Assembly: GCA_015657535.1 (NCBI GenBank)
Contig: JADHZB010001308.1
Location: forward strand, 41,935 to 105,934
Reading direction: 5' to 3'
Source of the DNA: Nephromyces sp. MM_2019
Taxonomy: Eukaryota; Apicomplexa; Aconoidasida; Nephromycida
Length of the DNA stretch: 64,000 bases
A program made the translations under genes and the position numbers. The notes below the pieces were generated by a model. The model was not told the origin of the DNA and did no database searches. It worked only from the letters and a program-made list of their open reading frames with translations. Below, one piece after another: positions 23,300 through 64,000 of this stretch (position 1 is the stretch's first letter; the number at the start of each line of letters is the position of its first letter).

Positions 23300-25552
23300 A
23301 TGAAATGCCGCCACCCCCCACAGATTACGCCGCCGGGGTATACGTTCATCGCTCCGAATACTCAATTAATGGTAACTGCAGAGAAGACTGCCACGGTGAC
23401 TCAAAAGAAGTCAGCCTCCTGCCACAAGTATATCTTGCAAATTGAAGCTGTCCACATTGGAAAGGTTGGTCTTCATGGGAAGGTTGTTCTTTTAAAGAAG
23501 GTCGCGGGTTCGTTGAAGATGGTGTGGATGCTTTCTTAGTTGCTGTATTATTGTATCAGTAGCACACTCGTTGCTGAACTTGTTCATCTCATTTTATACT
23601 GTTTATTGAGCTATATCCAGTGTGTTTTTGTATGTTGTGTCTTTATGATGCTCCATGAGCCTGTTAGATGCATCGTTTAAGCGCTCGGTAGGAAAAATGA
23701 TGTTGCGACTGGTATTATGTCGATGCCGCTTCTTACACATCACGTAATATCATTCTGTCTGATATTTTTAGGTGGTATAATATGTTAGCTGTTCTTAATG
23801 CCTTTATGTATTATGGTTGAGTGCTTAAGCTTGGTAGCTATTATTTGGTGTGATTTCAATGCACATCAACTTAAACTAGATATCATTAGCGGTGTTCTGT
23901 CGTTCACCCATTTTGACCTCTGGGAGTCAGTGAGAGTTAAGGGGGGGACGAAGCTGCGGCTATGTGATATTCTAATGCACGTTACTCAGTCCTTCAAGCT
24001 TTCCTTGCTAAGAGTTTGGTGATAACTGTTATACTTTTTTTTCGATTTTTACATTTGCATAAGTTTGTACCAACAGAGTTGCCACTAACTCTGCTGATGT
24101 CAAGCGTGCGTAATCACTTACTTGGTAGCTTTGTGTTGAATGGCCGTTCTGTAAGGACGTGATGGTAGGCTGAGTGCTCTGTTAGCCAGTAATTAAGTCC
24201 GTTGTTTTTTCCTACTTTTTTTTATTTCTCCTGGTGTGAGAATTCTGATGCTGAACTCCTCGATGCTTGATTTTTTGGCCCTCAGCTACGTTTATGAACT
24301 GTTCCTGTGACCTTTTCACAGCATCTACAGAGTACCATCGTTATTGGTTGAATATGTCACGAACTTTTTCTCAGAAATGAATGCGAATGTACGAGTTGCT
24401 TAGCCAGCATGCCGATGTTCTGCATGAACTCCTTTCTGATAGACGATGCCTCCTGTTTTCATTGTTACCGTGTCTAGAAAGTTGAATATTTTTGTGTTTG
24501 CATGAGAAGCCTTGTTATGTGGTGTTACTACTTTGGGCAGTGGTATCATCGGGTATCGTTTTTGGCGCTGTTGTGGTGCGTTACTGGATGGCCCTCCACC
24601 CTTTAATGCCGTAATATAATTATTAAATTGGGAATTGCTTTGTTAAATAAATTCAGGCAATGTATGCTTTTTAGGATATAGTGTGGGCTTTTATCGAAAT
24701 ATTTCTGCAGTAAAATTGGATGCAAATTTATTTCACTGGTTCTATGCGTGCACTTTAGTATTTACTGTTCAAACATGCGATAGTGACATTTTGAAGCCAT
24801 TTTGTTTGTTGTCTAATTGTGAGCTTATTCTGGGTTACCATTATCATCTTTATGCACAATAGCTAACTAATTCCGTAATTATGGCTTTTGTGGAATATTT
24901 CTCCGGTTTATCTTTTATGTTTTTATAAAGTATTTTGATTCGAATTCTTGCGAATATTTTGTTTCTAATGTATTGCAATACTGATTCCAGCGGTACGATG
25001 GACTAAGTTGCTTTTACCTGCTCTTATTTGTCTTGTCTGTAGGATTCAATATTCTATCTGACGTTTGCAAGAGCGTTAACTTTAATCGTTAGGAACCTTG
25101 TATCTTGTGCTAAATACTGCATTCTCTTTCACCTACAAAAAGATGGATGAGGTACAGGCAATTGCAGTTTCACAGAAGGAAACTCTGCGGTTCCGCAAAT
25201 GCTCCGCTACTTCTAGAGTTATTCCAGCCAAACAGCACGGAGCTGTTCAATTTAACATTTGCAAGGTAAAATTATTGGCTGCTCTATTTGACTGTTTCCA
25301 TATTATGCTTATCTTTGCAATTTATCTAATTTTTCAAGTCCCTTCTTGTGTATGACACTATTTTTTTCTTGAGCATATGAAATATTTTGAGGCGTGTTAT
25401 GTCGCTGTTTGTAGGTGAACAGTGAAGGGGTGATTATCCCAGGAGAACACGACGTTGTTGCTCTGTCCGCCCCCGTGCGAATGAGAGGAGAGTCCGACGC
25501 TGCTTTGAACCACATATTTTATGAAAAAAAAATACTCACTACCAAAATGTAG
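23300..25552 (+). CDS. MSP/VAP-like domain protein (5' end unresolved)
   Basis: Likely contains a major-sperm-protein (VAP) type Ig-like domain; VAP proteins bind FFAT motifs at ER contact sites, but no tail-anchor is visible here, so that role is not established. Exons: at or before 23300 to 23464, 25143-25265, 25415-25552 (stop), all joined in phase 0. Exon 1 reads 'MKCRHPPQITPPGYTFIAPN', then 'TQLMVTAEKTATV' and 'CHKYILQIEAV', lining up with the second half of VAP MSP domains (..FKVKTT..Y.VRPN.G.I.P....V.V......KDKFL.Q). If the frame continues upstream it adds GWAFQ, fitting the preceding strand. The later exons may form a second domain of the same fold ('GAVQFNIC', 'EGVIIPGEHDVVALSAPV'), ending TTKM. 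Start and upstream exons are not identified. Family assignment rests on motif resemblance only. Confidence 0.5.
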
Positions 25553-38832: not shown

Positions 38833-41777
38833 TTATGTCTTCCCTAACTGCCGCGATCCTGAGAGGCTGCGTATTTCATCCTAAACAAACAACTCAAAAA
38901 CCCATTTTTACTTCAGTTGAAAATTTTAATGAGGAAGCCAAAATCAAACAGAAGTATGAATGATTCATACCAGCATCACCTGAATAAAACGAGGCTCAGC
39001 ATTTCATTCTCAAAATTAATACAAAATAAGAAATACCAACATCTTTTTTCCCTTTCATCTACTTAATAAAAACATTCTTTACCTGTATTAATTTTGATGC
39101 AATCAAGTCATCAAGGCTAATCCGTTCAGTTGGATCCTTTTGAAGCATCGATTGGGTAATAAATCTTAGCTCTTTAGAGTAAAATTTAGGTATCTCTTCA
39201 ACCTGAAAAATAAGAAGACTATACACTAAAAAATGCATTTATCATAAAATATACTTTGGTTTGGTAAAATAATTAGGGAGCACGCTCAGCCTTCCAATAA
39301 AAGTAAAAAAGCTATTTAAGTAAAGAGTTAAAACCAGCTTTTTAACCGTAAATTTAAATAACCCATTATCGTAACGAAAATCACGTCCATAACTTCATAG
39401 AAAAAAGATATAGGTAAAATTTATCCTACACCCTAAACCTTTTTTTTCCCGTCATTTAGCGTTTGAATGCTATTTAATGAAAGAAATAACGTACTCTTGC
39501 TTTTGCAATGATCTTAAAGAGCTCGCTCAGTGATCCCGATACCACGAAAGGGTTCCTGAGTGTGGCCAGTTCGTGGACTATTAAACCCAGGGACCATATA
39601 TCACGTGGCCATGCATACTTATGACCCTGGTTAAAGCGAACAAGTGTGTACACTTTTCAATGGAAGAGCACTTCATAGAGTACTAATAAACTAAAAGCAA
39701 AAAATTGGTAAACTGCTAGAACAGGCAATGGCGAAAACAACGCATAGTCAAATTGGAGAAAAGTAAACTTTTTTAAACAGAGTCATATCCAACGTTATTT
39801 TCTTCCTAAAGCTACATCTCAAACAGGAGCAAATTGATAGCAAGCACAGTTTAGTAGACCTCGCGCATGTCAATTCTGAATCCCATTAAATAAGGTTCCA
39901 GTTATATCTTCAAAGAAAATGTATTATAAGAGGAAATCACTGCAAGTAGTCTTTGCTCCTCAAAGAAAAATTATCCATCGTGTTAAATTTGCTAAAGTAC
40001 CAAAGTAAGTAAGTTATTTCTTTGCACTGACCATACACATTTCCGGACTTATATAGCTTGGAGTACCTACGAAGCTGTGTGTCAGCGAAGGATACGGGCC
40101 CAAAATTTTTGACACTCCGAAATCTCCCAGCTTTATTCGTCTATTTTTGTCAAGGAATACATTCAGAGGCTTCAAATCTACGAAAATGAACGCAAGCTTA
40201 CTTCAGCCAATTAGGTAAATCAAAAATTCAATTTCATAGGTATATATGCTCATAAAATAAAGAGAAATATATTCCAGAAGGCTACTTCTCAACTTTTTAA
40301 AGAGATATACGCGCCATCTGCTTCTAAAATAGTTCGTTATTCTAATTAAGGCGAACACATATCCAACACAATGCAACATGGCAGAAACAGCATGTCGATA
40401 TGCAGAATTGTGCATGTTTGTCATGCAGTACCAAGCACTTTACAATAAGTACCCCTATTAGAATAAAATGTACGTGAAAAGGGTCGCCGGGATATTATTC
40501 TCAGAGTCATAGTTATTACTTAAATTTCTCAAACCGTGAATAAACAGTGTAAAAATCTATTAAAGGCATACGCTCACCCCGGTGTAAAATTTGATTTCGG
40601 TACAGGAACTTTAGCGCTAAAGATATCTGGGCTAGCCACTTTAAAATTTGCTCCTCATCAATGGGTTCATTTTTTTCACGATGTTTTACTATCACTTCTT
40701 GAAGGTTTCCACCTAGAAAGAGTGCCCAATGCGTACTTAAATTAATGATTTCTGGTAATTCTGTTGATGAAAATGTTTCTGCACCATTTCTTTGGTTTAT
40801 AGAATCAGCTTTAAACTGTCTAGAGATATATATAAAAATTTGGGCCCTTGACGAAAAAAACTGAATATTTAAAAATAAATAGTGTAATATACCGTATGCC
40901 AAAACAAGAACATATTTATTCGAATCTCTGAAACATAGCATACTTAACTGGCAGACTATCTTAAGAAGTTCACAAAAAGTACCTTCACAGTGCTCCATCA
41001 ATATGTAAAGACATCCACTGAGGATAAAGCTATCTCGGTATCGAACGATGTAAGGGTGGTAAAGTCGTGATAAGGCCTGTAGAGAAATATTACACGGCTT
41101 GAATATTCAGTGCACGATACAAAAAGCAGGATAACTTGGGGATAGGTGTAAGCTTCTCTTCGCTCATTATAAAGATTTGACCATGAAGCAAGCATCTGCC
41201 AAACTGGAATCAAGACTGATGTGTATTTTTAGTATTTATCTACGAAAGCGCACAGATTTATGTAGAAAGCTTCCCATAAAAGGAACCTGAAAATATGCTA
41301 CATTATTTGGCAGCTTCACGCATGACGGCAATGAAATATTTGAAGAATGGCTCATAAGTTGGTATCGCTTACTTGTATTTCGTTTAAGCAAAGCAGCTTC
41401 GAATATTTTGGCATTTCTTCGATATCAATAGCCTTCATTATGCTTCTGGAAAAATTTTTATTGTTAAAACCACATAAATTAAAAGATATCTACTTCTATG
41501 GATGTGCATGGCGACTAAAAACGTAAATTTGAGTAAGTTGAATGTTACGCATAAATACTATGCGATAGCATGCCTTCATGGCAAAGCAGACAAGTTATTT
41601 GGTGTTGAGACGAATAATTTAAATCAACAAACATACAACAGTTAAGTCATACCTCCCATGCTCGCTCGACCATACAAGATACACTTTACTCTTCGGACCA
41701 CTCCAGACCATTTCTAAGATACTAATATTTTTAAGCTTCTTAAGAATTTTTTTCGTGTCTCTATCCAGTTTCAACAT
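38833..41777 (-). CDS. NEK-family Ser/Thr protein kinase, compact form (290 aa)
   Basis: A NIMA-related kinase; the family acts in mitosis, centrosome and cilium control. Eight exons: 41653-41777, 41373-41445, 40983-41076, 40578-40712, 40032-40177, 39495-39626, 39083-39202, 38833-38880; all phases fit and all introns are GT-AG. Kinase landmarks: Lys in 'SIMKAIDIEEM' (subdomain II), Glu in 'LCLNEIQALSRLYHPYIV', 'LYILMEHCEGGNLQEVI' (NEK signature), catalytic loop HRDLKPLNV split across exons 4/5, 'LGDFGVSK', 'VGTPSYISPE', 'RDIWSLGLIVHELATLRNPF', and a final 'MLQKDPTERISLDDLI'. The Gly-rich loop is degenerate (LEMVWSGPKSKVYLV), but Lys, Asp, Asn and DFG are intact, so activity is plausible. Only about 15 residues follow the kinase domain, unlike the long coiled-coil tails of most NEKs. 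The frame is open a few codons before the chosen ATG, so an upstream exon is possible. Confidence 0.95.
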
Positions 41778-43177
41778 CTTTGTCTCATACCTAAACGCTG
41801 CAATAAAGCATACTGTTTTCTAGATTATTGATATTTTATTAGAACGAAACATATGACGATGATATTATGATTTACACGCAGTTATAGTACTGCAATAACC
41901 TGAAATTTTCCCTATTAACCCTAAAAGGTCTAACAAAAATTGCTTGGGACACATTTCGCTGATCTCACGCAAGTCGTGTAGGGAATTAATACTTGCGAAG
42001 ATACCCTGCTTAAGACAAACGAATAGCCCAATTATGGAGACGGACCAGCATGACGTTTCGCTTTTCTCTAAATACGCAAAAATCTTAAAAGTGTAGCAGA
42101 ATGTTCTTATAAGATATCTTACCATCTAGTCAAGGTGATAGAGTATCATGACGTATGCCGTAAAATTTGCTCGTCATATAGTGAATGATCATAATTATTT
42201 TACAGTTATTAATTTCAGGGATCCTTCCTGGCAGAGCAATATACTTCAAGATATTGATGCATTGATAGGGAGATACTAACCTGAACTACAGAGATATAAC
42301 ATATTTTTGCCATACTGTACACTAAAGGAATAGTTTATAAGGTATGAGCCACGCGTATGCAAGAGCTGACCTGCATTTGACGCTCAGTGACACAGAACGA
42401 GCTGCAGCAGAATTAGCGGTCCACTTGAAGCTCCTAACAATTTGGGCCATACAAAGGTTTCAAGAGCTCCAACAGGCGCAAACATAGGCTAAAAGATAGC
42501 CTGAATATTCACGGCTCAACAACTTTTATGAAAAATTGGGATTTTCGTAGCTAATGAGACACTCCATATTTTTCCACATGGGGTATTAAGCAAAGGAAGC
42601 CAGTTACTACACAATATTTTATGGATCCCTAGAAGTATCGTCAACCATGTGCTTATAATCATGTTAATGTGATCGGTACAAATTCAAGCACAATAACATC
42701 TCTTCAGCATTGGAGGTGGGGAAAACATCAATTAAAGAATAGTAGTTATCTTTTAGAAAGCCACAAACTAATTAAGAGTGTTAAGGCGAAATCCATATTA
42801 AAAGCTCAATCCTGGAAAGTAGGGAACCATTCACAGAACGTATCTACGTCTGATTATGACTGCAAGTACAAGTTACCAGCTCTTACATCGCATGCTCGAT
42901 GTTCTGATCAGGCCCTGTTGACAGTGCCATACAAGTTTGGGGCATGAAGCTTAACCAGCAACACTAAGCGTCAAAAGGGTTAATCGTAAATCTCTGGCTA
43001 CATTTATTTGGCAGGAGCGCACCCCTACAGCATCCTGAGTTAAATAGAGAGTGACTTCTAAGGAGCTTTTGCATTGGAAAATTTTAATGTAAGCTAAAAA
43101 AAAGTGTCGAAGCTTAAAAGAATGCCATACCGGCATATGAAATTGCCCACCGCGATTCCAGCGCACTTCTAGAACGG
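41778..43177. other. Intergenic region between two minus-strand genes
   Basis: Apart from the short plus-strand ORF at 42344-42487 (listed) I see no supported gene. The 42669-42947 plus-strand frame has no motif. Confidence 0.4.
42344..42487 (+). CDS. Short amphipathic ORF, 47 aa
   Basis: ATG at 42344 opens a 47-codon frame 'MSHAYARADLHLTLSDTERA', then 'AAELAVHLKLLTIWAIQRFQ' and a Gln-rich end. It is strongly helix-forming and GC-richer than its surroundings. A TAAG precedes it, so it may be an exon. The minus strand is also open in part. Not recognised. Confidence 0.3.
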   Translation: MSHAYARADLHLTLSDTERAAAELAVHLKLLTIWAIQRFQELQQAQT

Positions 43178-46817: not shown

Positions 46818-49800
46818 ATGCAGCTTTTAGCAGCACGTCATGAAGATGCTTGGCTTCCCATTAAGTCTAAATTTTTAGCCGACAAGTTAATATTGCTACC
46901 GGGAAGTAATATAAATATCTAGAGATCTTGTCAACGTAATGATTTTATAAGCCAATTCAGGAGTTCATTATGATTTTTGACCTGCTTGGAGCTCGATAGG
47001 TTGTTCCGACTCAGTTTTCTCTCCCCTCACTATGATTTTTCTGCTGAAATTTTGTTTCTATTAATGCAAAAAAATTATGATAGCAATTCACAAATTGTGC
47101 GTCAACTTAAATTCGAAGGATAGGAGGAGCTTGCTATAGATATGTACAGTTTCACGTATTTAAAAAAAAAATTTTATGTCCGAATTCTCTGTTGCTGTAA
47201 CACGTTGGCTTCAATACTTTGAGCAAGGACCCACCAATCTATAGATATTAGTATTCAAGTTTCGCGCTTCAAGAAAAATTCAGAAGCAAAAAATTGAAGC
47301 ATATTGAGGTTTCGGGCATAAAATTTTCTCCGCTTATGCTCAGTATAGAAATTTAATTGTTTGCATTTATGCATTCGAAGAAAAAAATGCAATGTTCCTA
47401 AATTAGGATAAGGGCATCATTAATTACATAGAGGCGTGACTTATAATGCGGGTGCAAATTTATCCTACCGCCGTATCTTGCATTAAAATTGTTTCCCCAG
47501 CAGATTAGAGATTTATAAGGCTTAAAATCAAATAAAAAAAATTAGACTGAAGTTTGCTAGTTTGAAACTTAATATATTTTTTGCAATAAAGAATTGCCCT
47601 ACTGTTATTTTGCGGCAAATGTTGCATAATGGTGGTCGTACCCAGTAGCATCACGACTATGCAGGTAACCAAAAAAGAGCAGTTGAGACATTTAGGATTC
47701 TATTCTTTATCTCGCTTGTAACTTACAAAGGATACAGAATATACTGGAAACAGTGCACAGACACGGATATGAATTAAAATTATTTTACAAGGCACTCTAA
47801 TTTTTGTTTTGCAGTTAACGAGATATCAATACAAGCATTATTCATTATTTCACTTTTGGGTTATTTTTACCTTCGAAGCTTCGATTTTCTTGTATTTATT
47901 CGCCGAAAGGTTTTTTCGGTGCTTATCTTGCACTAAACAAAGCATAGAAGTATATTAAAGTTTTCCTCAAAGAGGCTACTCCTCACTTTTGTATCGATAA
48001 ATTATTTCTCGCAAATTTCGTAAAAATATAAAAATTATTGCGATTCATAAGTGTATATATTCAAACTAGACAATCAGTAGGTTTCAACGGCATTGGCTGC
48101 CACTTGAATTATGTTTCAGCCGTAGAATGGTAGGGGATACTTTAAGCAAGCATAGGTAATTAATTTCGTGATACCAAAATATGTCCTTTTTTTTCTTAAG
48201 TAATTCTTTTTCCAATGCTGCAAAAAGGCTGATATTCTGTTGCTACTAGAATTGAAAACCGTGAGCAAAGATTTTTGTTTATTTTGTAGAAATAGCATTT
48301 TATGTATTAGTACGCAAGTAAATATGGCTAGTATAGCATCTTATGTGGTCATTCATGAAATTTTTTTTAGCGCTTTATAGTTCTGAATATTATTTACCAA
48401 AATTTTATATTATCTCCCTATTTAAAGTTATTGAAATTATACACACTACTAATAATTATACTGCCTATAATCAAAGCCATAAAGCAATCATGCTTCCGCA
48501 GTATCATAGCAATTGTTTTAGAGTGCAAATTATTTTAACAAGTAGCACTTTTATTCTTTACAAAAAACGTGTAGAAACAGCCAAAATTATAGAAATAATA
48601 TAGGTACTAAGTGGGGAAATTCATTGTTATGCATGTTAAGATATTTGATCGAATTGAGAGAGCTACCTGCTAAATTTTTGAGTTGAATACTTCGCACTGG
48701 CTATTGATTTTATTAATGCGTAAACACTCAGAAATGTAAGAAGACTGAAAAAACCTATTAAGTGCGCAGCCTTCATCTTACGCCCTTTAAAATATTTTTT
48801 TCTGCCCGAAAAAACTTCGGGATACTTAAATTAATATAGCGCTCTGTTTTTATTACCTCGAATTTTAAAGGTTTCGCAACCATGTAATGTCAAGGAATTA
48901 CTAATTAAAAAATGTTTTCTGTAATATCCAAAAAAATACATGCTGATGCAGCACACTTATATATCTTAGAGGAAAATTCATATAATTTTGTTTGGCGTTC
49001 TTTAGGGTAAAAACATTTGTCGTTTACTCGCTATATTGGGGACGCCAATGAACTCCGCTGAATTCGGAGGGCTTTTAGATATTTCGTTATTTTCTGTGCC
49101 AAAAAAAAAGCCTAGCGATTTTTTGATCCGCATAATATGAAAATTTTGTAGAAAATTAAGCAGAATCAAACCTAGAAGGCCATCATTTTGAAGTGAGGGC
49201 TAATTGCATCTAATCCAAAGAAAGCTTAAAAATGATTAATAAATTTCATTTTGTTTCAAATAAATATTATGAAACTTAGAGTGTACTACGAATTTATTTT
49301 AAGCTGCGAATTGCCAGATTTTTGTTAAAATTTTTATAGAAAATCCAGGCACCTTCAACTGCTAGACTAGTTTGATTATGCTTTCATCATTTGAATATAT
49401 TAAATAGTTAAAAAGTGCTTTCTTTGTAGTGTAGGACACGCAATAGGCAGAAGTATTTTTAAGTTTGGACCCGCTTTTTCTGCGCATGATATACTTTCAA
49501 AATATAATTGCTTGATTAATCGGAATTACCTTTTATTTCTAAAGGTTTTGACTGGAAAAACATTAATTTAATTTTTCTCGCCAATTAACTCATGCAATAT
49601 CTTCAAGATAAAAATTGAACGTGAATAACATACATTATAATAGTTCAAAGACCTATTCCAGAAACTTTGCTCAAGAAAAGCAGTTGCGTTTATTTGGCAA
49701 CATAAAAAAGCTTTTAAGCAAGAAACAGGTGATAAGGCTTTAATGCTGCTATTACTCATAGATTTTGAACATTTAAAGCAAAATAGCAGTGAAAAACCTT

Positions 49801-51079
49801 GTTTACGGCGCTCAGCATAGCTAACATTGTTTAATTTTTAGTTCTTAAAAGTAAAGCCAAGTATATGTTTTACGCAAGTTTCAGTACGCACTGGAAAGCA
49901 CACCCTTCGCAAATTAGTGGCCTTTTTCATGTAAAATTTCTATATATTTTTGGACAGGACAATGTTTAGTTGTGTTTGAGCGCAAACGCTTAAACATCAT
50001 AATTGAAATTCTCAAACTATAAAGAATTGCGAAGCTATAAGTCAAGAATTTTTATATTACGAGGTGCAAGTTCAGTCGCTAATATACTACATATTTGCTA
50101 ACTGCATAAAGATGCTAGGGAATTGGTGAATCTAATCTGTCTATAGAGGCACCAAGAATAGAAAGACCTAAGTATAGACGTAAACTTTTTTAATTTGAAA
50201 GCGTAGATAACTTTCCATTAAATTTAATGTCTAAATTTTCGTAAATCTTTCAAAACTCCCATCTTTAGCTTTTGTGTAAAAAAATTTTCTCTGCTTTCTA
50301 CTCCATCTAAAACACTTTTTGAGCATAAGCAAAAATTTTGAAAACTTACCCCTTAATAAAATCTTAGGTTTGAAAAATGAATTACAATATAGTAGTTATT
50401 CCATGAAACTTTTTCTTAAAAATTTTGTTTTATATTTGACTGGACCAAAAAAGAGATATTAATACTATAAATTAGATTGCTTTCACGGGCTAATCGATTT
50501 GCATTTAGCGGTTGATCAAAGCTTAAATAGCATCAAGATGCTATATAATAAAATATGGGCAGCTGTTAGCAATATCTTAACTTCTAACGGTGCTTGCGGA
50601 GGGTATACTTTAACTGCCATATGCAAAGTTATTACAGAGAATCGCGCATGCTGGTAACCAAAGAAAAAAGCGCAATCCTGCGCTAAAAAATCTAGAGTTT
50701 TCTAAGTCATAAAATGCGGGATTTTTGAACTTCACTCATGTGAGATTAAGGTAAATACTGTTATTTCAGACCAGCCTATTTAATTCGAGTTTCTACAGTG
50801 GCTGATTTGGATAGCCAGACTTTTTAAAAAAATATTCTATTAAAATATTGCGGTACGGATTAAGAACGTGTAAAATATTTTTACAAATTTCATAAGCTGA
50901 AAATGAGACATCCTCGTATTCATAGAAAAAATAAGACTCCTAATTAGCACCTTGAAGGACAGATTGAACCTTTTTATGGTTATAGCGAAAATTTGTCTGA
51001 GGCTGCCTTGAGACGCCTTGCTTTGAAGAAATTGGACCTAAAATTTAGGCCAATTGAATCTTTTCAAAGTATTTTTTAG
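46818..51079 (+). CDS. Tentative plus-strand gene built from scattered exon candidates
   Basis: Candidate exons: 46818-46905 (start MQLLAARHEDAWLPIKSKFL, donor GTAATA), 49006-49140 ('ICRLLAILGTPMNSAEFGGL', ending in a stop), 50638-50712 ('RIAHAGNQRKKRNPALKNLE', ending in a stop) and 50948-51079 ('IEPFYGYSENLSEAALRRLA', then 'LKKLDLKFRPIESFQ', stop). Each follows a good acceptor and reads like protein, but they do not form one consistent chain and two of them end in stops, so more than one transcript or gene may be present. LLAILGTPM loosely recalls the post-subdomain-IX segment of CDK-type kinases, too weakly to call. The rest of 47-51 kb is AT-rich with no visible gene. Confidence 0.35.
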
Positions 51080-51704
51080 CAAACAAAAAACTGCAGAAAT
51101 ACTTATTGGGCTTTTAAATTAACCTTTGAAAACGTTCACACTCTAACATTGGCTAGTTGCTGCAAAAAATATAAAAATCCGCGATAAAAGCTTATATTTA
51201 AATATAAATAAATTTTATTTGAAAGACTAAAAAAACAAATTATTTAAAAAAACCAACTTAACTAGCAGTTACGTACGGCTTCATGACCAAAACATTTTTG
51301 AAGCAATCAAAATAATAGCAGAAATATATAAATAGTCTAAAGAAAAAATAACCGCTAAATATATTAAATAGATAAACTCTGCTAGGTGCTTTTTTATGTT
51401 AAATGAAGAATTAATTTTGTCAAAATCTGGAAATACTCAATTAAAGTATACAATAAATGTCATAGCACAATGGATTAGAAGTAATAGCAAAAACTACATC
51501 CCTCAATTAAACAACCGATTAGCCAATAAAGCAGCTTTTTATTTGAGTTATCACAAAACACCTTTTATAATTTTAAAAAAAAATATGCACAAACTAATTT
51601 AGACAATGTTCGCTATTACCAGACTTATTCAATAATAATATAATAAAGCAAAAACACAAGATACGTACATAAACAACATTCTAATGTTGACCCACGCTGC
51701 TTAC
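51080..51704. other. AT-rich spacer
   Basis: Lies between the tentative plus-strand terminal exon and the last recognised module of the minus-strand array. A 68-codon frame at 51396-51602 shows no motif. Confidence 0.4.
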
Positions 51705-54700
51705 GTTGAATTGGGTTGGGATCATTTACTTCATCTTTTTCTCGGGCCTTTGATGTTAAACTAGATTCTGCTGCAAATTATTCATAATAAAAAACAAGTG
51801 TAAATGACAAAATTATTATAAAAAACCGCTTTCATAGTTGATATAAGCACATAAAACACATAAATAATCTCAAGCCAGCAAGCTTGTAAAAGAGAACAAG
51901 ATGTGCTATCCATTGGCCGTAAAATAAGGAAAAAAATTAAACAGCAAGATTAAGCAATGTCATAAAAAGTGGCATCATGTAATTACAACGATAAAGTAAA
52001 ATTCTATTTAAATGAGTTCAATTTAGAAGGTATAATCTTTGTATCAGAATTATTTTACATTTTTAATACTGCATGTAAAATTTTGCTGCAAAATTTTTGC
52101 ATATTAAAAAACATTTGACTATATGTAATAAATTTTTATAGAGCAAATGCTGTCAAAAATATGACTTAAAAATTTTGCAAAAGCAAAATTTTAAAACCTT
52201 TTATTAAGTAATCAACTTTCAGTACATAAAATCATTTTTTTGCAAATTACTCTAGAGCTAGTTCAAAAACTAAATGCGAAAAGTTGTATCAATTCTAAGT
52301 TGCGGTTTTTTTAACAACAATTCCTTTTGTATCATATTATTATGACATATCATTGAATAAAAAATGAATGAGAGTGAAGCATCTGTTATTTTTAATATGT
52401 TTGTTTTGTAATACTAAAACGGATTTCTACGCCTATAGTTGATAATAATTAATTTTTTTGGTATGCACAGTGTCCCAGTACAAGAATAAACCTGACAAAA
52501 AAAATATTTTGCTATAGTAAGTGTATCTAGCGTTAAAATTGTTTGATAAATAAGTAGCAATCCAGTTAAAAGTATAAATTTTTTTTGAAAAAAAGTTTAA
52601 TAAAAATAAAGGCAGTGATGCCGAATCACACGCATAATATTTAGTAGCAAAAAATAATACTATCCTAGCTTTAACGGGTCACTTGTTAAATGTTTGTGCT
52701 CAGTATTATTATTCAACAATTCGGTGCTATTTGAAAATTATTTTAAGCGCTAAAGGTGGAATAATTTTCAAAAAAATCAAGCTGCAGTTAGTTGATATAG
52801 CCATATAAAGTGTGTTAATGCAACCACTAGAGAATTGTCTACTTATATCTTTATAATGCTTATAATTCATAATTTGTGCAAAAAATTCTTATTAATGCTA
52901 CAGGACCGCATATAGAGCGCATATTTAATATTTGATTTTAATTCTATTCAGCATTTTTGAAGTTGCCGCTATTTGCTTTGGCAAAATTTTTAATATCTAT
53001 TGAAATCTTTTACATAGTGTTTTAAAACTATGGCTTCAAGCAGCACTAAACTGCTAGTCAATTCAAGTTTAATATCTAAGTATATAGCTTAAAGTATTAA
53101 TCTTGTGCACATCATTAATACTACTTTTGAAGAATTAGCATAAAAGCATGAAGATAATTTAACTCACTTAAAAATTGATTTGCATTGATGACAAGCTTCA
53201 CATGAAAAGCTATGTATATAAAACCACACAAAAAAATTTTCCATTACGTACTTTCTTTGAAGATACCAGCATTTATCTCACTATCATGAAATTCCAGTAG
53301 AACATCGGAATCATCTGCGTATTAATTGTAACATATAATATATATAATTGCTTAAATTCTGCATAATTTAATTGGCTGATGAAGCAATATAAAATAACTT
53401 AAAAATGTCTTGACATAGATGTGTTGTTCAGATTTGTATACAAGCCCTAATTAATGCGTCTACTAACTACTTTTCAAAATTTAGGTTAAAATATTCAATT
53501 ATAGGATCAAATATTGCGTAATCAACTAAAAATCACGCAGCAGCATAAGTGACTTAAGATATTGCTTACCTTGAGTTAAAATTTCACTAATTGCACCGTA
53601 ATCAGTATAAGTGTGTGATATTATATTTGACTCCTCTGCTTATAAATTAACACAATAAATTTTAATTGCATAAAATATGATGAACTGCAAAGTCTGCGTT
53701 AAATCAAATTAGAATTTACCCTTAAATAGCTTTATTCATTCGTCACTAAAACAGGATTGATAACTCTGTATCGCTGCGCTATATATTATAGACTTTTTAC
53801 CAAGCAAAAAAAATTATTTTTACATAGCCACTAATCCAAAGAAGACAAATATTGATGCTTATGTAACCAAAATTGAAGCTGTTATAAATGCAATGATGCG
53901 GACTAAAAAACTGTGAAATTTTTTAAGCAATAAAAAAATCGCAAAATAAGATTAGTAGAGCAGAAATGCGATAAAACAAAACAGTAAAACCTTATATATT
54001 TCCAATGGCTTATAAAAATCATGCTTAACAGACTAAAATTGCGCTTTATTGTATCAAAGGCAGTTAACTTAATATATGCTTTCAATCTAAGATTGCATAC
54101 TGCTTTCGAAAATATCATAATATTTTGCAAAACTATGACTAGACTTCAATGTCAAAATAAATAATTTTGTGAATTCTTTATGGCATTAATTATACAAAAA
54201 TATAAGATATGTAAAAAATTTCTCTTTATTTTCGTGCCTCTGCAAACATAATATATCATTTTACTGCATATTGAAAGACAGTGTTATAAATCAAAAGCAT
54301 TACCCACGGATATCAACAAAAAATTTATCTAAAAGTATTTATCAGCTACAACACAAGCTTTATCCTAAGCAATTATTAAAAGCTAATTTTATGTTAATAT
54401 TGCTTACCTTGCTCTGCAATTTTATTGCCAATGTCCACTTTATGATCAGAATGCAAAGATACATTGGAACCTCCTGCATATCATTTTTGCAATGTTAAAT
54501 GTGTAACTGCAGGCTGTCTAATAGCATGTGCAAAAAAAAGTTTTAGGATCATGTTCTACTAAATCTAATTTCTTAATATAAGGATTCCTCAATTTACATA
54601 CTGCTTCGTACATGTTAAACTAAAATAAAAGTAATGAAAATATAATTTTTAAGTTTAAATGCGCACATTATTCAAAGCAGCTGCAATGGACTGCATTGCC

Positions 54701-57700
54701 TAATTGGCTCGTCTTTATTCGATAAAAAATCTTTTTATAATAAGCATAACAAATTCCGCACGAAATCTTGCTTAATTAATAACATGAACACATTTTTGCG
54801 TTGCACACCTTCCCATAAGGCTTCACCATCAATGCTGTCACTGCGATAAGTTTGTAACAATAAATTGGGCTTATCTGCGTATAATTTTCAAGTTTAAATA
54901 TGTAAGCGTATAAGGCATAATTTAAAAAAATAAAAATTAGAATGAAGATTTGTTTTAATGTCAAAAAATTCGGTTATTCAAGATATTTCAAAATCGTAAT
55001 AATTCCGCGCTTTTTGTATTAGAATGCTTCAACTCAATTTCTGATTACAAGAATGCACAATAACACATTTTACGCGGGCAGGAAGTATTGCATAAAAAAA
55101 TCTAATTTACCCTCAATAAATCAATGAAAGACCACCAGAATCATCTGCAATATAAAGCTGTAAACCTACATTGAATTTTCTTCATATTAGCGGTATATAA
55201 CCGCGTAATATGTATAGCCAATATAATTAATGTTGAAAAAAGTGTAAAAATTAGCACCCAGTAGTATATATTAATAAAGTATTAGAGTTATTTTAACAAA
55301 AACTAGAATACTGCTGCACATATTATGCGCTTGATTTAACCTGAAATGGCCAAATTTATATTGGTCATAAGGGCGTGCTGCATTAAAAAAAACAAGATAA
55401 TACCATAAAATGATGATGGACTCATTTACCTTCATATAATACATCGTTAGCAGCACCATCAGCGTCGTATTGACCCTCTGAAAATAGAAAATTCAATGGT
55501 TCTGCATATGTATTTTTTTGTGAAGTCATAAAAAACCGCTTATAAGGATCTTTAAAATTGCTGGACCAGAGACTTAATATCATACGTAAGCAATACAAAA
55601 GTCATTCTAGCAAGCTTCACTGTTAAAGCATATAAATTTTTTTTTCTTGTATGCTTTTGCCCGAATATTTTACAACTATGATGTTAGAATAGATAGATAT
55701 TTAATATAAAAGACTTAAAACTAAATTTTGAATTTGTATACCTTCAGATAATGTGTCATTTTTAAGCTCGCTATCTTCATATTGGACAGCTGAAAATATC
55801 ACATGTATTGTGTGGATATGTTAGTTATAAAGTTTAATATAAGATCCTACAATATACGCATTAACAATTTTGATTACTGCTAACTTTATTTTAACAATTT
55901 CGTTACGTTAATCAAGCAGAATATGCTATTTAAATTTGTACAAATAGTGCAATATATATATATATATATTTCAGGTTTTTACACGGTACAGCGGCAAAAT
56001 TTACAAATATTATTGCATTTTTACATAACAGCATGACAAAAAAGATATATAATTAAACATTTCATGCATTCACCTTCTTTTAGTATGTCATTCTCCATGG
56101 CATCATCATCATTATATTGACTAGCCGATAATAACAAATTAGATAGTCCTATAAACATATAATATTATTTTGTGCACAATCCTAAAGTAACCAACAAAAT
56201 TTATGATCATTGTGAAAATTAACATACACAAAGAACTCAGCTTTGCATGAATACAATTGAAATTATATTTTAGCAAGCGCATTATCATTACATTATTTAT
56301 GGCGGCACTTTTTTTTATAAGTGATGTTAACAATACAAATTGTATACTGCAACTAATGTAAAACCCATTTAACTCGTTACTGAATCTACCTATCTTAAAA
56401 AATGTATGATTAGAAACATCAGTAGCGCAGTATTTACCAAATTTATAATATAATAAATGCCAATGCATACATGCTATGATGAAGCATAAGGTCTACAATT
56501 AATTCAAGGCTTAATACCATCAATTAAATTACCCTATATACACACGGAGTAATACAGCTACTTCAAAAACAAATGCCACCGCCATAGATATTTATCTCCA
56601 AATTTTTTATTTTTGAATGTTGAATAATACAAAATTAAAAATTTTATCATGAAGGATTACATTGGTGTGCTGTTGAAAAATTATATATTTAGGCAATAAA
56701 TTTATTTACCTTCATATAGTCCATCAGCTTCAATGCTGTCATCGTTTTTTTTATTAGCTGAAAATATTTCATTGAAATCCTCTAAAAATATATTATAACT
56801 TTCAAAATCTACTCGGAGAGAATGAAAAAGCGCATGGAAATAAGGCAAAAATTATGCCACACATTATTAACTTTGCAATTCCTACCAAATTATAGCCATT
56901 TTAACTATTACTAACACCATGAAATGCACGTTACGCAGCTCCTCATACTATGCAGCTTGGTGTAATTTCAGCACCATACTTAAACTTTATACTATAATGC
57001 ATAAAAATATAATAAGCAAAAATTATTATATAAATTTAATTTATTCATTTTCATATGGCTTATAATTAATTGCAGCTTTATATCCACTAGCTGGCTACAC
57101 CAAATTGGGTTATGCATAGGCACTATAAGCTTTAAAGTGTAAAATTTTGGAATAGACAATAAAAAGTATAACTATTATCAACTTTTACATTTAAAAGTGG
57201 CTTCTATTTGCCTGCATGCACCAATGCGGCTATTTATTAACACAAAGTCCACTGCAAGGCATTTATGCCTTTCTTTGTGGTTGGCTTTTAATAGTAAAAC
57301 TTAAAAACGTGGTAGTATAGTATTGTATAAATTTATAAACAAAGACTCAGTCCAAATCAAATGTCTTCATCTTCAAAAAATTTGTAATCAATAGAATTAT
57401 TTTGTGCCCGTTGCCATACTGTATTGTACTATTCTGCATATATATTATATATTATAATCTTCAATGTATAGTTTCAAAATATACACTAGTTTATATGAAT
57501 AATGCATAAATTCATGTAGGCAATTATCTTAAAATTATGCATAAAAGCAGTGATACAAAGGTATTCCAACGAATATGAAAACCGCAAAATACGTATTATT
57601 TAGCATAGTGTATGCTAGCAAAATTTGGAACCAATAAAGCATTATATTAATTAGATGCCTCTGAAAAATAATAAAATTAAGTATGAAACATTTATCTTTA

Positions 57701-60700
57701 TTTAAGGCTTAATCAACATTGTATTCGATCCCCTGCCAATACTAAAAAATTGATGCCTTGCCATAATCATATTGTTCAGCACTTAGTGGTAGAATACCTA
57801 ATTGCTTATATTTTTTATTTCAAACGTTAATTAACTGTTAAAATTAACATTAAGCATATAAAAAATACTGCGGTAACCCCACAAAAACTAAGAAAAGCAC
57901 ATCGTATGTCTATTTATTTTAGTTTGAAATTCGAAACTTTGCAATTGTTGTAAGTTCATACTAAATAAGCATCTACTAAAAAAAAGCAATTAAATGCAGA
58001 TTTTGCTTACCTTCATTTGAAAAATAATTCCCAATGTCATCTTCGACGCTTCTTTCCTCTATATATACGTTATTATATTTGAATTAATTATAGAACGCGT
58101 AATAGCATATATTCTTAACTCTAAAATTGATATAAACATTTAAATTCAATTTCAAATACACGCATGATGAAAGCTACTTAAAGAGACGGTATTGTTATAA
58201 CATGCCTTTTACCTTTAAGTTTTATTATATGTCAGCAAGATCTACAAGTATTATAAAATTACATTATTGCTAATGTCTAGGATGAAGCTCATAAAGTATC
58301 TTCACGCAAGTTGTCACTCTCAGTGCCATCATCATAGCCTTGATCATCTAATAATAACACATTACATAGTTTTGCGTATATATTATAAAGTCTTGCATAC
58401 TATAGCAAAATAATGGCTTATTCCTGTTAAGCTGAAACTTACATAAACAAAAGGCTAATAGTGTTCATGCGTATACAAGTAGAGTGACACCAATAGAAAG
58501 AAAAATTGCAATATACCCTCACATATACAAATTTAAGTAATGCTGGCAGTGTTCGAAATATAAACAGGGCATGCTAACTTTAGCCTATAAGTGAAAACGC
58601 ATTTTGATATTTTCTATTTACTATCATTTAATATTTCACCATCAAAAAATTTACCAGCAGCCAATGCTGGACTGTAGCGGCTTGCAGTTATACTATCATC
58701 TTTGAAAATTTATTTTACCATACTCAATAGTGTATGTAGCATTGTGAACCTAATCTTAATTGTAATGATACCTATAATTATATTAGGTATCATTACAGCT
58801 ACTTTAACAAATAGTAGCACTATCAAATATATAGCATATTTTTGGTATAACATAAAAGTGGAAAATATTTTATATACTATAAAAACATACTGTAGCATAG
58901 CCTAAAAATGAAAGAATAAAAAAAATTATTAAATTATGCTCTTTCATATTACGCTGAAATAGCATGTGTTTTTATTCAAACAAAACCAGTGATTCTATAT
59001 TAGATAGTTCTGCACATAATTTATAGCAGTAAATATATATTTCAGGAATACTTCATTGCTTATATGTTTTAAAGAATTGATGTAGACAAGTGACTTAGCA
59101 TTAATAAAGCAGGCACCGCCACAGTTCAGTAAACAAAAATAATACAATGCACTGCATATGGTATTTTTTTTTTATTATGCGTATTAGTTTTTAGCCGCAT
59201 TCATAAATATTATAAGAATATCATATAAGAATTTCTTGTAATATATTCAATATTCAAGTAATTAAGCATAGCATTTATTGCTTACCTTCATACAATGTGT
59301 CATTATTATCGTTTTGAGTTCCTGGCAATTCTGAGCTGGTTTCATCTGAACAGAAGTTAAAATAAAAAAATTTGCAGGCACAATTGATAATAATGCATAT
59401 CATTAACGCCAAAAATTTCCTATAAAAAAACCTTAAAATGAGTACATGGCACTATCAGAGAAGCTCAAATATACAGCAATACTTTTAAAAGCTTGCAATC
59501 TAGTTTCAGCCATTTAAATTGGCAAAATTTACAGGTTTATTATATTATATTACTCGATTGCACAATGGAAAACTTACAAACTGAACCGCTTAAAGTAGTT
59601 TTTTTTATACAATTTTTAATCAAAGAGGTCTTTATTTTGATCATCAGGGATATAGTATTGAATTAGTTGCCCATATGCTATAACATGTAATACTTAATGG
59701 TAAAACGTGTGTTACCGTATTTTATTAATGTAGAATATTATTTTTTACAATTGGCTTGCATTCTACATACACTTAGTATTACAGCTATTTCAATGGAGCA
59801 GAATTGTTTTATACAGATTAATTTTTAGCAAATTGCCTGTAGTCGCAGCATTTATACATTTTGTAGCATATATTTACATAATCATAAGAGAAAAGTCGTG
59901 ATATAACTTGAAATTTATTTACCTTTGTTGATTATGCCATGTTTGGTTTCATAAGCACCATACTGATCATCTGAAAATATATGATTTATTTCTACATATA
60001 GATTAAAATGTTGCAAATTTAATAGTACAAAGTGTGGTACAGTATATGGCCTGAAGTTGAAATTAATATGGACAAGTGACCTACATTATGAATAATATAC
60101 GCATTGGTATAACTGCTTTAAAAAATAAAAACTGCAAAATACATAGCAGCGGCTTTTTCTAACTTTTAACAGGATTATATAGCAGATGCAATAACAGCTT
60201 AAATTCATGCCTCAGAGGAAATTTGTACTTATACAAAATCAGTCAATTTGGCTTTTTTTAATATGTCATTATAATTGCAGCCGTCACTATTGTGCCCAGC
60301 TGTCCACTTTACGTTTAAGTGTTTTGATATATGTTACAATGCCTAAAATGCAATTATGGCTCATGTAGAGTTTGTGTTTTAACTCCACTCTTTATAAAGC
60401 AGCGACTTTGCACTAGGCATAGACATACCACAGGTAATTCAATAAGCCTTAACGCTACGTAACACGTGTGTTATTATTATAATAGATATTAACATTCACA
60501 AACAATTTTAATGCTTTTTACGAGCACCTAATTTCAGGCACAGAATATGATATTTATTTACCAATGTTTAATGAGTCCTTATCCATTTCATTTTCATCGC
60601 TTTGAGCTGCAGCCAAGACTAAATTGGATTTTTCAGGATATAAGCAATAATGTTTCAAATGCAATAGTAAAGCAAATAATAACTTATGCCGATAATGTCG

Positions 60701-63700
60701 GAATTGCTATAAACATGTAATTTGCATTATCAAGATACACTAGGTTACCGTAATTTTTGCAAAAAATAATAGGCAAATTTAGGCATATATTCTTTGCTAT
60801 ATATTATAGTAGGCACTTCGAAAACAATTATAACATCATAGTAGATTTGAGCCTAATACAAAAAAATTACGCAATCAAACCTATAATTTATTTACCATCA
60901 TATAATGGGTCAATTTTAATATCATCATTATCGTACTGAGCCGCTGTCAATACTACATCGGATTCTTCTGCATACATATTACTACGTTTAATATTTAACT
61001 TCAGAATATATTTTGTTTCAATATTACTAAAAATTTGGCTTAAATTACACATAAATGTATTACTGCGGTGATTTTTTTAAACAAAGTTATGATAATATAG
61101 ATACTGCCTTCCTTTATGGTATATACCTGCTTAGCTTACGGGAAAGTCATTACATTAATTTCTGATATAAAATTATATTACACATTGATTAACTTTATCA
61201 TTATATAGCATGTAGTTATTGGTATAATTAATGGTCTATGCAACGGCTGATAATACCAAATTAAAAATTATTGCATACGCTTCGTAACCAACGTACAATA
61301 GTAGAGTGAGTCATATGACATGCAATCATTCTATAAATTTTTATAACTAAATAGTATACATAGTACGCATGCATGCCACTGCTGTCATTGGGAAAATAAT
61401 AACATTGTGACTGACATACGATCTTTATCACAAGTATGTTAGCGATGATTAAACATGGCTAAAATTGTGTTAGGGTTACCCTAATATAAAATTATATTTT
61501 TAAGCACTGGAAAAATTAAAGAGTATATCATGCAACACAAAAATTGCTGTTAATGCTTCGACCATAAGGCAATGCTTTACTCGGGCATTCCGTATGAAAA
61601 AGACAATACATAGCCAGCGATAGAACAAATGATTTCATATTTTGTTAATAATAAAATTTGTATAAACCGGTGGCTTCTTTCATGCTGGTAGGTATTCTTG
61701 TAGCTACTATTTCTATAACACAATAAACCCGCCATTCTCATATTATGTTCTTTCTACCAAATATCACAGCTTCATGCAACAATATTATAGCTTCATATTT
61801 TATCAAGCTCTAGTTTCAAGGCTATATAATTATGCACATTGAATCTAGTTACCTTCAAACGGCGGGTCAATCTGAACGTCACCAACATCATCTTCCGGAG
61901 CAGCTTGAGATATTAAGTTAGATTCTTCCGCAGCTACGTTGTGCGCATGAAATAATGAAACATATATAATTTTATAGGCTTAATGTAACTTGGCATATTT
62001 CTTTATGCGCATACAAGCGGTTAAAGCTATTTTAAAAAAAGAATACCGTTAAAAAATTAATGCAGACACTCTTACTACAATACATGGTACAGCACAAATA
62101 TAAGAGCATAGAAGATAATGAGCTCCCAACAGAAAATTCAAAGCATTAAGAAAATTTGCCTTCATATAACGTGTCAACCTTCATATCATTATTATCATTT
62201 TGAGCTACTGGTAATATACGATTGAATTCATCTGCAAATATGTAGTTATTTTTGTTATATAATGGGTTAGCAACACTGCAGTACGCAATTAATATAGGAA
62301 CACATATAGTGTAATTATAATATTTAGATAAATAAGAAACAAAAATTTCCCAACAAAAACAATTGTGCATGTATTCACATTTCAAAGACGTATCACATCA
62401 ATTTTTAGCAACTTGATGGCTCTGCAATATAGTTAGGCCAATACAAAAGTCATAAAACTTCTTATTATGTACATATTTTTTTATATATGCCAATCCAAGT
62501 TTTATTATTGGTATCGCTTCAAAACTGCTAGTAATAATCCGCTGGACTCATGTAAATATATATAATTATTTTTAGCATGCTGTAATAAGTCTGCTGCATA
62601 GTCTAATATATTATTGAAATGGAAATTCATGTAGATAATTTAAGTATACTATCCTGCTACGCGCACTAGCTCGCGGCGTTTTAATGTACTGTAATAAAAA
62701 TAGACTTGTACTTTTTAATTTCCAAAACTTAGAGTGACATCTACTAATTTTGATACTCTCGTATTATATATGCTTTTATTAAGCCATGCACCGCTTAATT
62801 ATTGAATATAATTACCCTCATACAATGTTCCAATTAGAGTATCATCATGGCTATCTGTTTGAGCCGCGGATAAAATTAAATTAAAGCTACCTGAACACAT
62901 AATCATATTTAATATGTAATGGCAGGCAGAGTCTAGTGTATGAATCATGTACAAATTCATCTAGATGAGTGATGTATACTGAACATGCGCATGCATCCGT
63001 GAAAATAGTATCAATACATATACACCTAATTTCCTATACTTTTTGGCAAGTATTAGCTCAATTTAGTAATTTCATAGTCTCATACCACACTAGACTTAAA
63101 CAGTAGACTCCTGCAAGTAAATATTATGAATGATTATCTTCATTTAATTTGTCAATTTCATTGCCGTCATTGTTATCATTTTCAGATGCAGGGAATATTG
63201 AATTAGATTCATCTGCATAAGTGTGATACCATTCAGTGTAATGAGAGAAAGGATAGCAGGGTTAATTCTTAATGTAAAAATTTATATAGATGCGAAACAT
63301 ATAATATGCAGAGAAACATAAGCATTTTTTTCTGGCTTAGAATCATATTAAGATATGTATATTTGCATGCTCGCAGGAGCATTGCTTTACTTTTTAGCGT
63401 GCTCAACACCCCGGCACCCAAATGCCATTGCATGTGGAGTCCCAATGAAAAACTGGAACGCCTTCTTTGGTCTCTAAATTCATGACTATATAATGCACTT
63501 ACTTGTAAAAAACAACACCTCCCATTAGCTAGTTGACATAATTACCTTCATTTAATCTCTCAATTTCATTATCATCATTTTGAGTTATTGGTAGTAATGA
63601 ATTAGAGTCATCTGCATAAATACAATAATGTTTAGTATATGATGCTAGAATGCATAGTCTAGTATACTGCTAAATTAGAATTTTACATCAGTGAAATTCG

Positions 63701-64000
63701 TATAGTATACGAACAAACGAGCATACATCGTTTTAATTTTTATTACTTTTATGTTCATATTTATATTTTTGTTAATATATACATCGCTGTATTTAACACG
63801 AAACTAATAATCATATACCTTAAATGTTTCAATATGCAATGAATCTAACTAATAATTAAATACAATTACCTTCATTTAATCTCTCGATTTCAGTATTATC
63901 ATTGTCGTCTTTCGGGGCTGCTGATAATATTGCAGTTAACTCGTCTGCACAAATATGATATTGTTTAATATATATTGATATAGTGCATTCTAGTATTTAG
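51705..64000 (-). CDS. Acidic modular protein encoded by an array of symmetric mini-exons (both ends open)
   Basis: Minus-strand exons with usable splice sites, 5' to 3': 63870-63944, 63546-63611, 62816-62890, 62160-62231, 61853-61933, 60896-60967, 60562-60618, 59923-59970, 59286-59345, 58011-58058, 56710-56781, 56074-56148, 55742-55789, 55430-55501, 54809-54874, 54408-54473, 53570-53635, 53252-53314, 51705-51770. Every one is a multiple of three, enters with two bases and leaves with one (phase 1-1), so any can be skipped without frameshift. Together they encode about 416 residues. Typical modules: 'ESDVVLTAAQYDNDDIKIDP' plus LYDG, 'EFNRILPVAQNDNNDMKVDT' plus LYEG, 'SFNLILSAAQTDSHDDTLIG' plus TLYEG. 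They are acidic and Asn-rich, with no Cys or membrane segment; probably an extended secreted, surface or scaffold region, but the ends that would tell lie outside or unidentified. The 3' end may lie left of 51705. Family not recognised. Confidence 0.82.
55111..55144 (-). pseudogene. Truncated, frameshifted array module
   Basis: Good TTGCAG acceptor and GTAAAT donor flank only 34 nt, which is not a multiple of three; the entering frame (DSGGLSLIY) hits TGA. Inclusion would break the reading frame. Confidence 0.55.
55953..55970. repeat. TA dinucleotide microsatellite
   Basis: An uninterrupted run of about nine TA units in an array intron. Confidence 0.85.
57365..57433 (-). pseudogene. Dead array module with stop codon and no donor
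   Basis: A 69-nt module with a good TATGCAG acceptor. Its second codon is TAG, and the donor is GAAG/ACATTT. The remaining frame still shows the module pattern (NTVWQRAQNNSIDYKFFEDE). Confidence 0.6.
58300..58347 (-). pseudogene. Array module with lost donor (AT for GT)
   Basis: A 48-nt in-frame module (DQGYDDGTESDNLRE) with a TTATTAG acceptor; the donor position reads GAAG/ATACTT. Confidence 0.55.
58761..58797. repeat. Short perfect inverted repeat inside an array intron
   Basis: TGTAATGATACCT (58761-58773) and AGGTATCATTACA (58785-58797) are exact complements with one more pairing base inside each arm. The 62-67 codon open frames on both strands here (58702-58905) are a by-product of this low-complexity palindrome. 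Confidence 0.8.
60252..60299 (-). pseudogene. Array module with lost donor
   Basis: A 48-nt in-frame module (GHNSDGCNYNDILKK) follows a CAG acceptor, but the donor position reads CC rather than GT. Confidence 0.45.
60562..60633 (-). other. Array module with mutated acceptor and a substitute inside
   Basis: Alignment to its neighbours puts the ancestral acceptor at 60634-60635, where the coding strand now has TG instead of AG. An AG inside the exon (TTTAG before 60618) keeps phase 1 and gives a 57-nt exon beginning LAAAQSDENE, so the module may survive in shortened form. Confidence 0.5.
63138..63212 (-). pseudogene. Array module with lost splice donor
   Basis: A 75-nt module in frame ('ESNSIFPASENDNNDGNEID', then KLNEG) with a normal TATGCAG acceptor. 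The donor reads GAAG/ATAATC, with AT where GT is expected, so it should be skipped or misspliced. Confidence 0.6.

Follow-up and report, generated by a model that had tools for sequence, protein, structure and literature searches.

A tandem array of symmetric, homologous mini-exons for an acidic protein module in a probable apicomplexan genome

Results

Layout of the array

The minus strand at one end of the 64,000-nucleotide (nt) stretch of DNA analysed here, hereafter the window (contig C666:41935-105934 of its own-genome assembly), carries a tandem array of short homologous exons, positions 51705-64000, that spell versions of one acidic protein module. Twenty-four module copies (M01 to M24) were found by eye, and the 21 open ones were checked by script; every one of these is a multiple of three in length (48-81 nt) with phase 1 on both sides, which bears out the strand, range, exon sizes and phase given in the original prediction. 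That prediction had also counted at least 24 copies; this many are indeed present, but only 18 look usable as exons, that is, open, symmetric (phase 1-1) and bordered by usable splice sites (17 AG..GT and, with M05 counted, one AG..GC). Three further copies are open with one splice site gone, the donor in M03 and M11 and the acceptor in M08, and three (M13, M14 and M19) contain in-frame stops, read by eye. The contig stops at window position 64000, leaving the 5′ end of the gene off the contig, and because the array runs into that end, the copies counted are a minimum. The exon edges described earlier, D/E-E-S-N at the acceptor and L-Y-E-G at the donor, are present, but D/E and G belong to a single codon divided by the intron (G|AT or G|AA), such that the junction after splicing usually reads L-Y-E-[D/E]-E-S-N.

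The features of the array are listed below in 5′ to 3′ order, with scores in bits referring to the DNA profile described in the next section.

63870..63944, minus strand: M01, intact module exon, 75 nt; 5′-most copy, with the contig end 56 nt away
63546..63611, minus strand: M02, intact module exon, 66 nt
63138..63212, minus strand: M03, open, donor lost (GATAAT); stop after four further codons
62816..62890, minus strand: M04, intact module exon, 75 nt
62524..62575, minus strand: relic in the M04-M05 slot, 10.7 bits; 15.5 nt from the predicted slot
62160..62231, minus strand: M05, module with GC donor (GCAAAT), assumed usable
61853..61933, minus strand: M06, intact, 81 nt; GCGG stands where the acceptor is expected, and an AG lying 9 nt farther upstream apparently took over with the frame kept, judging from the sequence
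61199..61266, minus strand: relic in the M06-M07 gap, 6.2 bits; 25.0 nt from its slot
60896..60967, minus strand: M07, intact module exon, 72 nt
60562..60633, minus strand: M08, open; expected acceptor lost (CCTG)
60252..60341, minus strand: relic in the M08-M09 gap, 7.1 bits; 14.5 nt from its slot
59923..59970, minus strand: M09, short module exon, 48 nt, 18.3 bits; no protein-level signal
59286..59345, minus strand: M10, intact module exon, 60 nt
58990..59034, minus strand: relic in the M10-M11 gap, slot 1, 8.7 bits; 9.3 nt from its slot
58615..58705, minus strand: relic in the M10-M11 gap, slot 2, 7.3 bits; 4.7 nt from its slot
58300..58347, minus strand: M11, short, open, donor lost (GATACT), 35.4 bits
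58011..58058, minus strand: M12, short module exon, 48 nt, 8.1 bits (E = 0.12)
57690..57746, minus strand: relic in the M12-M15 gap, 5.0 bits (E = 1); 11.2 nt from its slot
57647..57660, minus strand: M13, module-like start with in-frame TAA, 3.2 bits; about 80-85 nt off the lattice, doubtful
57357..57433, minus strand: M14, relic with in-frame TAG, 7.4 bits; 7.5 nt from its slot
56710..56781, minus strand: M15, intact module exon, 72 nt
56074..56148, minus strand: M16, intact module exon, 75 nt
55742..55789, minus strand: M17, short module exon, 48 nt, 29.3 bits
55430..55501, minus strand: M18, intact module exon, 72 nt
55111..55144, minus strand: M19, truncated and module-like, in-frame TGA; about 43 nt from its slot, no DNA-profile match, doubtful
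54809..54874, minus strand: M20, module exon, 66 nt; leave-one-out score reached by 29 of 2000 shuffles
54408..54473, minus strand: M21, outlying module exon, 66 nt, 12.3 bits; no protein-level signal
53570..53635, minus strand: M22, outlying module exon, 66 nt, 13.2 bits
53252..53314, minus strand: M23, outlying module exon, 63 nt, 8.5 bits (E = 0.087)
51705..51770, minus strand: M24, final module exon, 66 nt, least core-like, 5.0 bits (E = 1)
51281..51426, minus strand: M25, probable terminal exon of 48 codons (the first split with M24), hydrophobic C-terminus, then TGA

Two observations belong beside this list. M03, M11 and M14 each read into E-D plus two to three residues and then a stop near the place of the donor, which may mark alternative last exons or be chance. 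On the minus strand at 56142-56492, 117 open codons end at M16 in another frame, probably by chance in AT-rich sequence.

Homology of the modules

Relatedness was measured with a leave-one-out test, in which each of 13 core modules was scored against a profile of the other 12 and against 2000 shuffles of itself. Twelve of the 13 outscore all 2000 of their own shuffles; the exception is M20. Among the eight outlying modules, M17 (4/2000 shuffles) and M22 (17/2000) stand out at the protein level and M11 does so weakly (77/2000), and the protein profile test gave no signal above shuffles for M09, M12, M21, M23 and M24. A DNA profile built from the 13 core exons with their borders, scanned over both strands of the 64 kilobases (kb), recovers all eight outliers, with M11 the highest and M24 the lowest score, together with seven stretches in the long gaps, M14 among them. 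All 28 matches of at least 5 bits, a total that includes the 13 training modules, fall inside the array on the minus strand, and the best match elsewhere in the 64 kb reaches 3.5 bits.

Composition singles out the same strand. Among open symmetric AG|..|GGT segments, with modules and nested segments counted, a net acidity of at least 0.2 was found in 21/41 on the minus strand of the array and 0/3 on its plus strand, and in 3/101 and 0/124 in the rest of the window. An array detector tried on the window in eight slices was positive in the last slice only and missed the slice 48001-58000, which holds the other half of the array; this detector is insensitive.

The conserved sequence is largely confined to the exons. 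Across the core modules (M03 and M08 included), identity at codon positions 1, 2 and 3 is 59, 64 and 51%, respectively (permutation p about 0.016). Comparison of the 150-nt upstream flanks in 210 pairs left only M01/M02 above every null score, with M08/M12 borderline, and none of the 210 pairs of 150-nt downstream flanks stood out. Guanine-cytosine content is 35% in exons and 28% in introns. The exons have thus been kept while their 150-nt flanks drifted, as expected under coding constraint on the exons.

A spacing lattice with relics in register

The distances from one module start to the next fall into ten of 288-401 nt and ten longer ones. All 20 together are best described by a period of 312 nt (R = 0.73; two smooth null models give p = 0.001 and 0.003), and with the period taken from the ten short spacings alone (mean 334.4), eight of the ten long ones come within 0.2 of a whole multiple (p 0.006-0.016). 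When the long gaps are split into equal parts on a unit of 330 nt, 40 slots are predicted, 22 of them filled (the 21 checked modules plus M25) and 18 empty. All seven extra profile matches of at least 5 bits (M14 included) lie within 25 nt of empty slots, a fit equalled by 0 of 20,000 random placements. At lower cut-offs, seven of eight extra matches are within 30 nt of a slot at 3 bits and seven of ten at 0 bits; as a control, 30 shuffles of the intron sequence produced two matches of 5 bits in total. These relics in register support the earlier proposal that the gene changes by exon duplication and loss. The simplest reading is that the array descends from an ancestral tandem of about 40 exon-intron units of ~330 nt, roughly half of which are still usable.

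The probable 3′ end and the predicted joined product

Twelve AGs fall within the 280 nt after the M24 donor, and a 48-codon frame (M25) follows the last one considered, immediately before 51426, and closes with TGA at 51281. M25 starts 344 nt, or one period, after the start of M24, and its peak 19-residue hydropathy is 2.23. A search of the own genome at E <= 10 found no second copy of it. The stretch 51281-51426 is the likely, though not certain, terminal exon. Joined in silico, the 18 usable modules and M25 form a single open frame whose sole stop is at the end. The modules contribute 397 residues with 26% D+E, 5% K+R, 13% N+Q, no cysteine and an isoelectric point of 4.05, followed by the hydrophobic tail. 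From this composition, the chain is presumably disordered, and the product would most likely be a spacer or stalk with negative charge, sited at a membrane.

Searches for relatives

The own-genome assembly (48.28 megabases in 1127 contigs) was searched for further modules, and none was found outside C666 with protein queries (E <= 10) or DNA queries; of the modules in the window itself, the consensus query recovered only five, so it could miss distant copies. A match on contig C996 to the pattern of the M03 start, with three mismatches, was dismissed as chance because 30 kb of that contig gave no module with the protein profile. The gene is apparently single-copy. A protein database search for the module, a kind of check that had been proposed earlier, produced no relative, with none at E <= 0.001 among 5511 candidates; the ribosomal protein eS21 of this genome is also without a homologue in that database. 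No module match was obtained in PDB (best E 0.054) or, for the minus frames of 50001-59900 only, in Pfam.

Neighbouring genes and the host genome

Elsewhere in the window, a two-exon gene for eS21 occupies the plus strand (25143-25265 and 25415-25552), its nearest relatives among solved structures being Plasmodium and Toxoplasma eS21. An intron-rich protein kinase gene lies on the minus strand at about 39000-41800 (Pfam Pkinase, E 7.1e-15 and 4.3e-07). No Rfam family and no transfer RNA were detected in the window.

Marker queries against the own genome gave one match for AMA-1 and 20 for IMCp, the latter query also matching one of 14 control genomes, a bacterial one. Uricase gave eight matches on three contigs, namely C548 (two), C1090 (four) and C1018 (two); those on C548 lie within a single 364-residue open frame and those on C1090 and C1018 are in pieces. 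Malate synthase gave 0 matches with a query that matched 6/14 controls, in an assembly that may be incomplete. On the evidence of eS21, AMA-1 and IMCp, the genome most likely belongs to an apicomplexan. A genome with urate oxidase but no malate synthase fits Cardiosporidium better than Nephromyces, Toxoplasma or Plasmodium (PMC6320678). With uricase matches in hand and malate synthase not found, a Cardiosporidium-like host would be the better fit here.

Discussion

A proposed gene grown by unit duplication

The phases, the open spliced frame, the lattice spacing and the modest codon-position bias give good support to a single gene of tandem, symmetric and homologous mini-exons, as the original prediction had proposed. 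With moderate confidence, we read the locus as the 3′ part of an apicomplexan exon-encoded repeat gene that grew by unit duplication and decay, and whose product would be an acidic, disordered, membrane-anchored spacer. The gene body would have expanded by tandem duplication of a ~330 nt unit made of an exon of ~72 nt and an intron of ~250 nt, each exon supplying an acidic module of ~25 residues, roughly [DE]-E-S-N-x-x-L-x-A-A-Q-x-D-x-x-D-x-x-x-x-D-x-L-Y-E. Phase 1 at both exon edges means that the array can gain units, or lose them when splice sites decay or stops arise, without a frameshift: a duplicated unit would add ~25 residues, and a unit with a lost splice site would be skipped with the frame intact. 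If the locus is transcribed and its usable exons are spliced to the terminal exon, the result would be a repetitive, cysteine-free and very acidic chain with a hydrophobic anchor, and the number of exons that survive would determine how long it is; a location at a membrane is suggested by that anchor.

Several results weigh against this account. M23, M12 and M24 are tied only weakly to the family by their DNA-profile E values. Two long spacings, of 838 and 1544 nt, fit no whole multiple of the period, M13 and M19 lie off their predicted slots, and only 7/18 empty slots hold a profile match of at least 5 bits, leaving 11/18 with none. Modules close together in the array are not significantly more alike than distant ones (Mantel r = -0.10, p = 0.14), such that neighbour-to-neighbour duplication is not visible and the order of duplications is therefore unreadable. 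The codon-position bias is modest in size. M25 itself may be chance, given that 7/620 AGs in the region (M25 included) open an equally long frame with a peak hydropathy of at least 2.0, compared with 2.0 per 605 in shuffles. As to the host, two control genomes of bacteria also matched the uricase query, and the assembly may contain bacterial sequence. Finally, with six broken copies among the 24 and no match in 11 of the 18 empty slots, the gene may be dying, wholly or in part.

Alternative explanations

Carried to its end, that last point would make the entire array a pseudogene with the open modules as its remnants, which we regard as unlikely. The six copies with a lost splice site or a stop, the 18 of 40 lattice slots without a listed module (11 of them without a profile match of 5 bits) and the lack of any detected relative that would show conservation all agree with such a history. 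However, one frame can still be assembled from 18 open exons with usable splice sites, conservation is higher at codon position 2 than at position 3 while the flanks have diverged, and decay by whole units is just what dispensable symmetric exons would be expected to undergo. The regular spacing alone might also suggest that a ~330 nt satellite-like repeat, itself non-coding, happens to contain an open stretch, but this is scarcely credible when similarity is confined to the exon stretch and its splice borders, acidic open AG..GT segments are in excess on one strand, open-module lengths preserve the frame and codon positions are unequally conserved. The stops soon past the donor place in M03, M11 and M14 raise the further idea of several small tandem genes of a few modules each, with M03, M11, M14 and M25 as their own last exons. 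We consider this very unlikely, since the gaps from M03 to M04 (247 nt) and from M11 to M12 (241 nt) leave little space for a promoter plus an initial coding exon, although start exons were not searched systematically.

Compatible with growth by duplication is a cassette-exon locus, an idea already raised in the original prediction, in which subsets of exons would be joined differently to give variants in length and composition. All 21 open modules are symmetric, so any combination would stay in frame, and the way in which M03, M11 and M14 run into E-D, two to three residues and a stop would suit alternative last exons. Nonetheless, tandem duplication alone explains the symmetry, the 150-nt exon flanks share almost no sequence usable as selector elements, and no feature was found that separates cassette from constitutive exons; on balance, differential joining seems to us a minority possibility. 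Still more speculative is a combinatorial exon-array locus, in which variable subsets of at least ~18 interchangeable exons would yield membrane-anchored acidic proteins in an apicomplexan; we think this improbable, but if true, surface variation in a protist would arise from splicing and exon turnover rather than from gene families.

Under the favoured reading of a repeat gene grown by unit duplication, one lattice holds open exons, copies that lost a splice site, stop-bearing copies and faint relics, and exon birth and death become legible at a single locus. Gene finders are likely to miss genes of this kind, and others may be hidden.

Comparison with known systems

The likeness to micro-exon gene families suggested earlier holds for architecture and for nothing beyond it. 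Schistosome micro-exon genes (MEGs) have many short exons of 6-81 nt, mostly multiples of three, with longer introns between them (PMC10526429). The array shares short exons of multiple-of-three length with these genes, but most MEG exons are 15 nt, as opposed to 48-81 nt for the array exons, which are moreover copies of one module on a lattice; exon size thus sets the two apart. An N-terminal signal peptide, a further MEG feature, would, if present, be encoded in the 5′ part of the gene beyond the contig end. Bicycle proteins of aphids carry paired cysteine motifs. Their genes have unusually many small internal exons, with more than 100 microexons in a related gene, and in the classifier built for them, phase-2 exons count towards membership whereas phase-1 exons lower it (PMC9168663). 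Many small internal exons are found in the array too, but all are in phase 1, unlike the classifier's preference, and cysteine motifs are absent from its 397 cysteine-free module residues. Splicing within an exon array of the Dscam type is mutually exclusive, and the homologous exons stand in tandem within one gene (PMC1397879). Tandem homologous exons are common to both, but no common selector-like sequence was seen in our array within the 150-nt flanks compared.

Repeat growth exon by exon is known from animals, and the PEVK region of titin, with its 28-residue repeat and its exon phase, is a familiar case. Many small exons there encode repeats of a charged chain, and the region alters by exon duplication and loss (PMC6469411); the chain is disordered (PMC12295887). 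In architecture, the array appears to follow the same principle of small exons, charged repeats, and duplication and loss, although its module is acidic and rich in D, E and N rather than in P, E, V and K, and it belongs to a protist gene rather than to an animal muscle protein. No such array of exons in an apicomplexan was described among the matches listed from open-licence PMC papers. Two features of the general architecture of exon-encoded tandem repeats are present at this locus: the exons are homologous and in tandem on the same strand, firmly so for the core and more weakly for the outliers, and they are symmetric and of the same phase.

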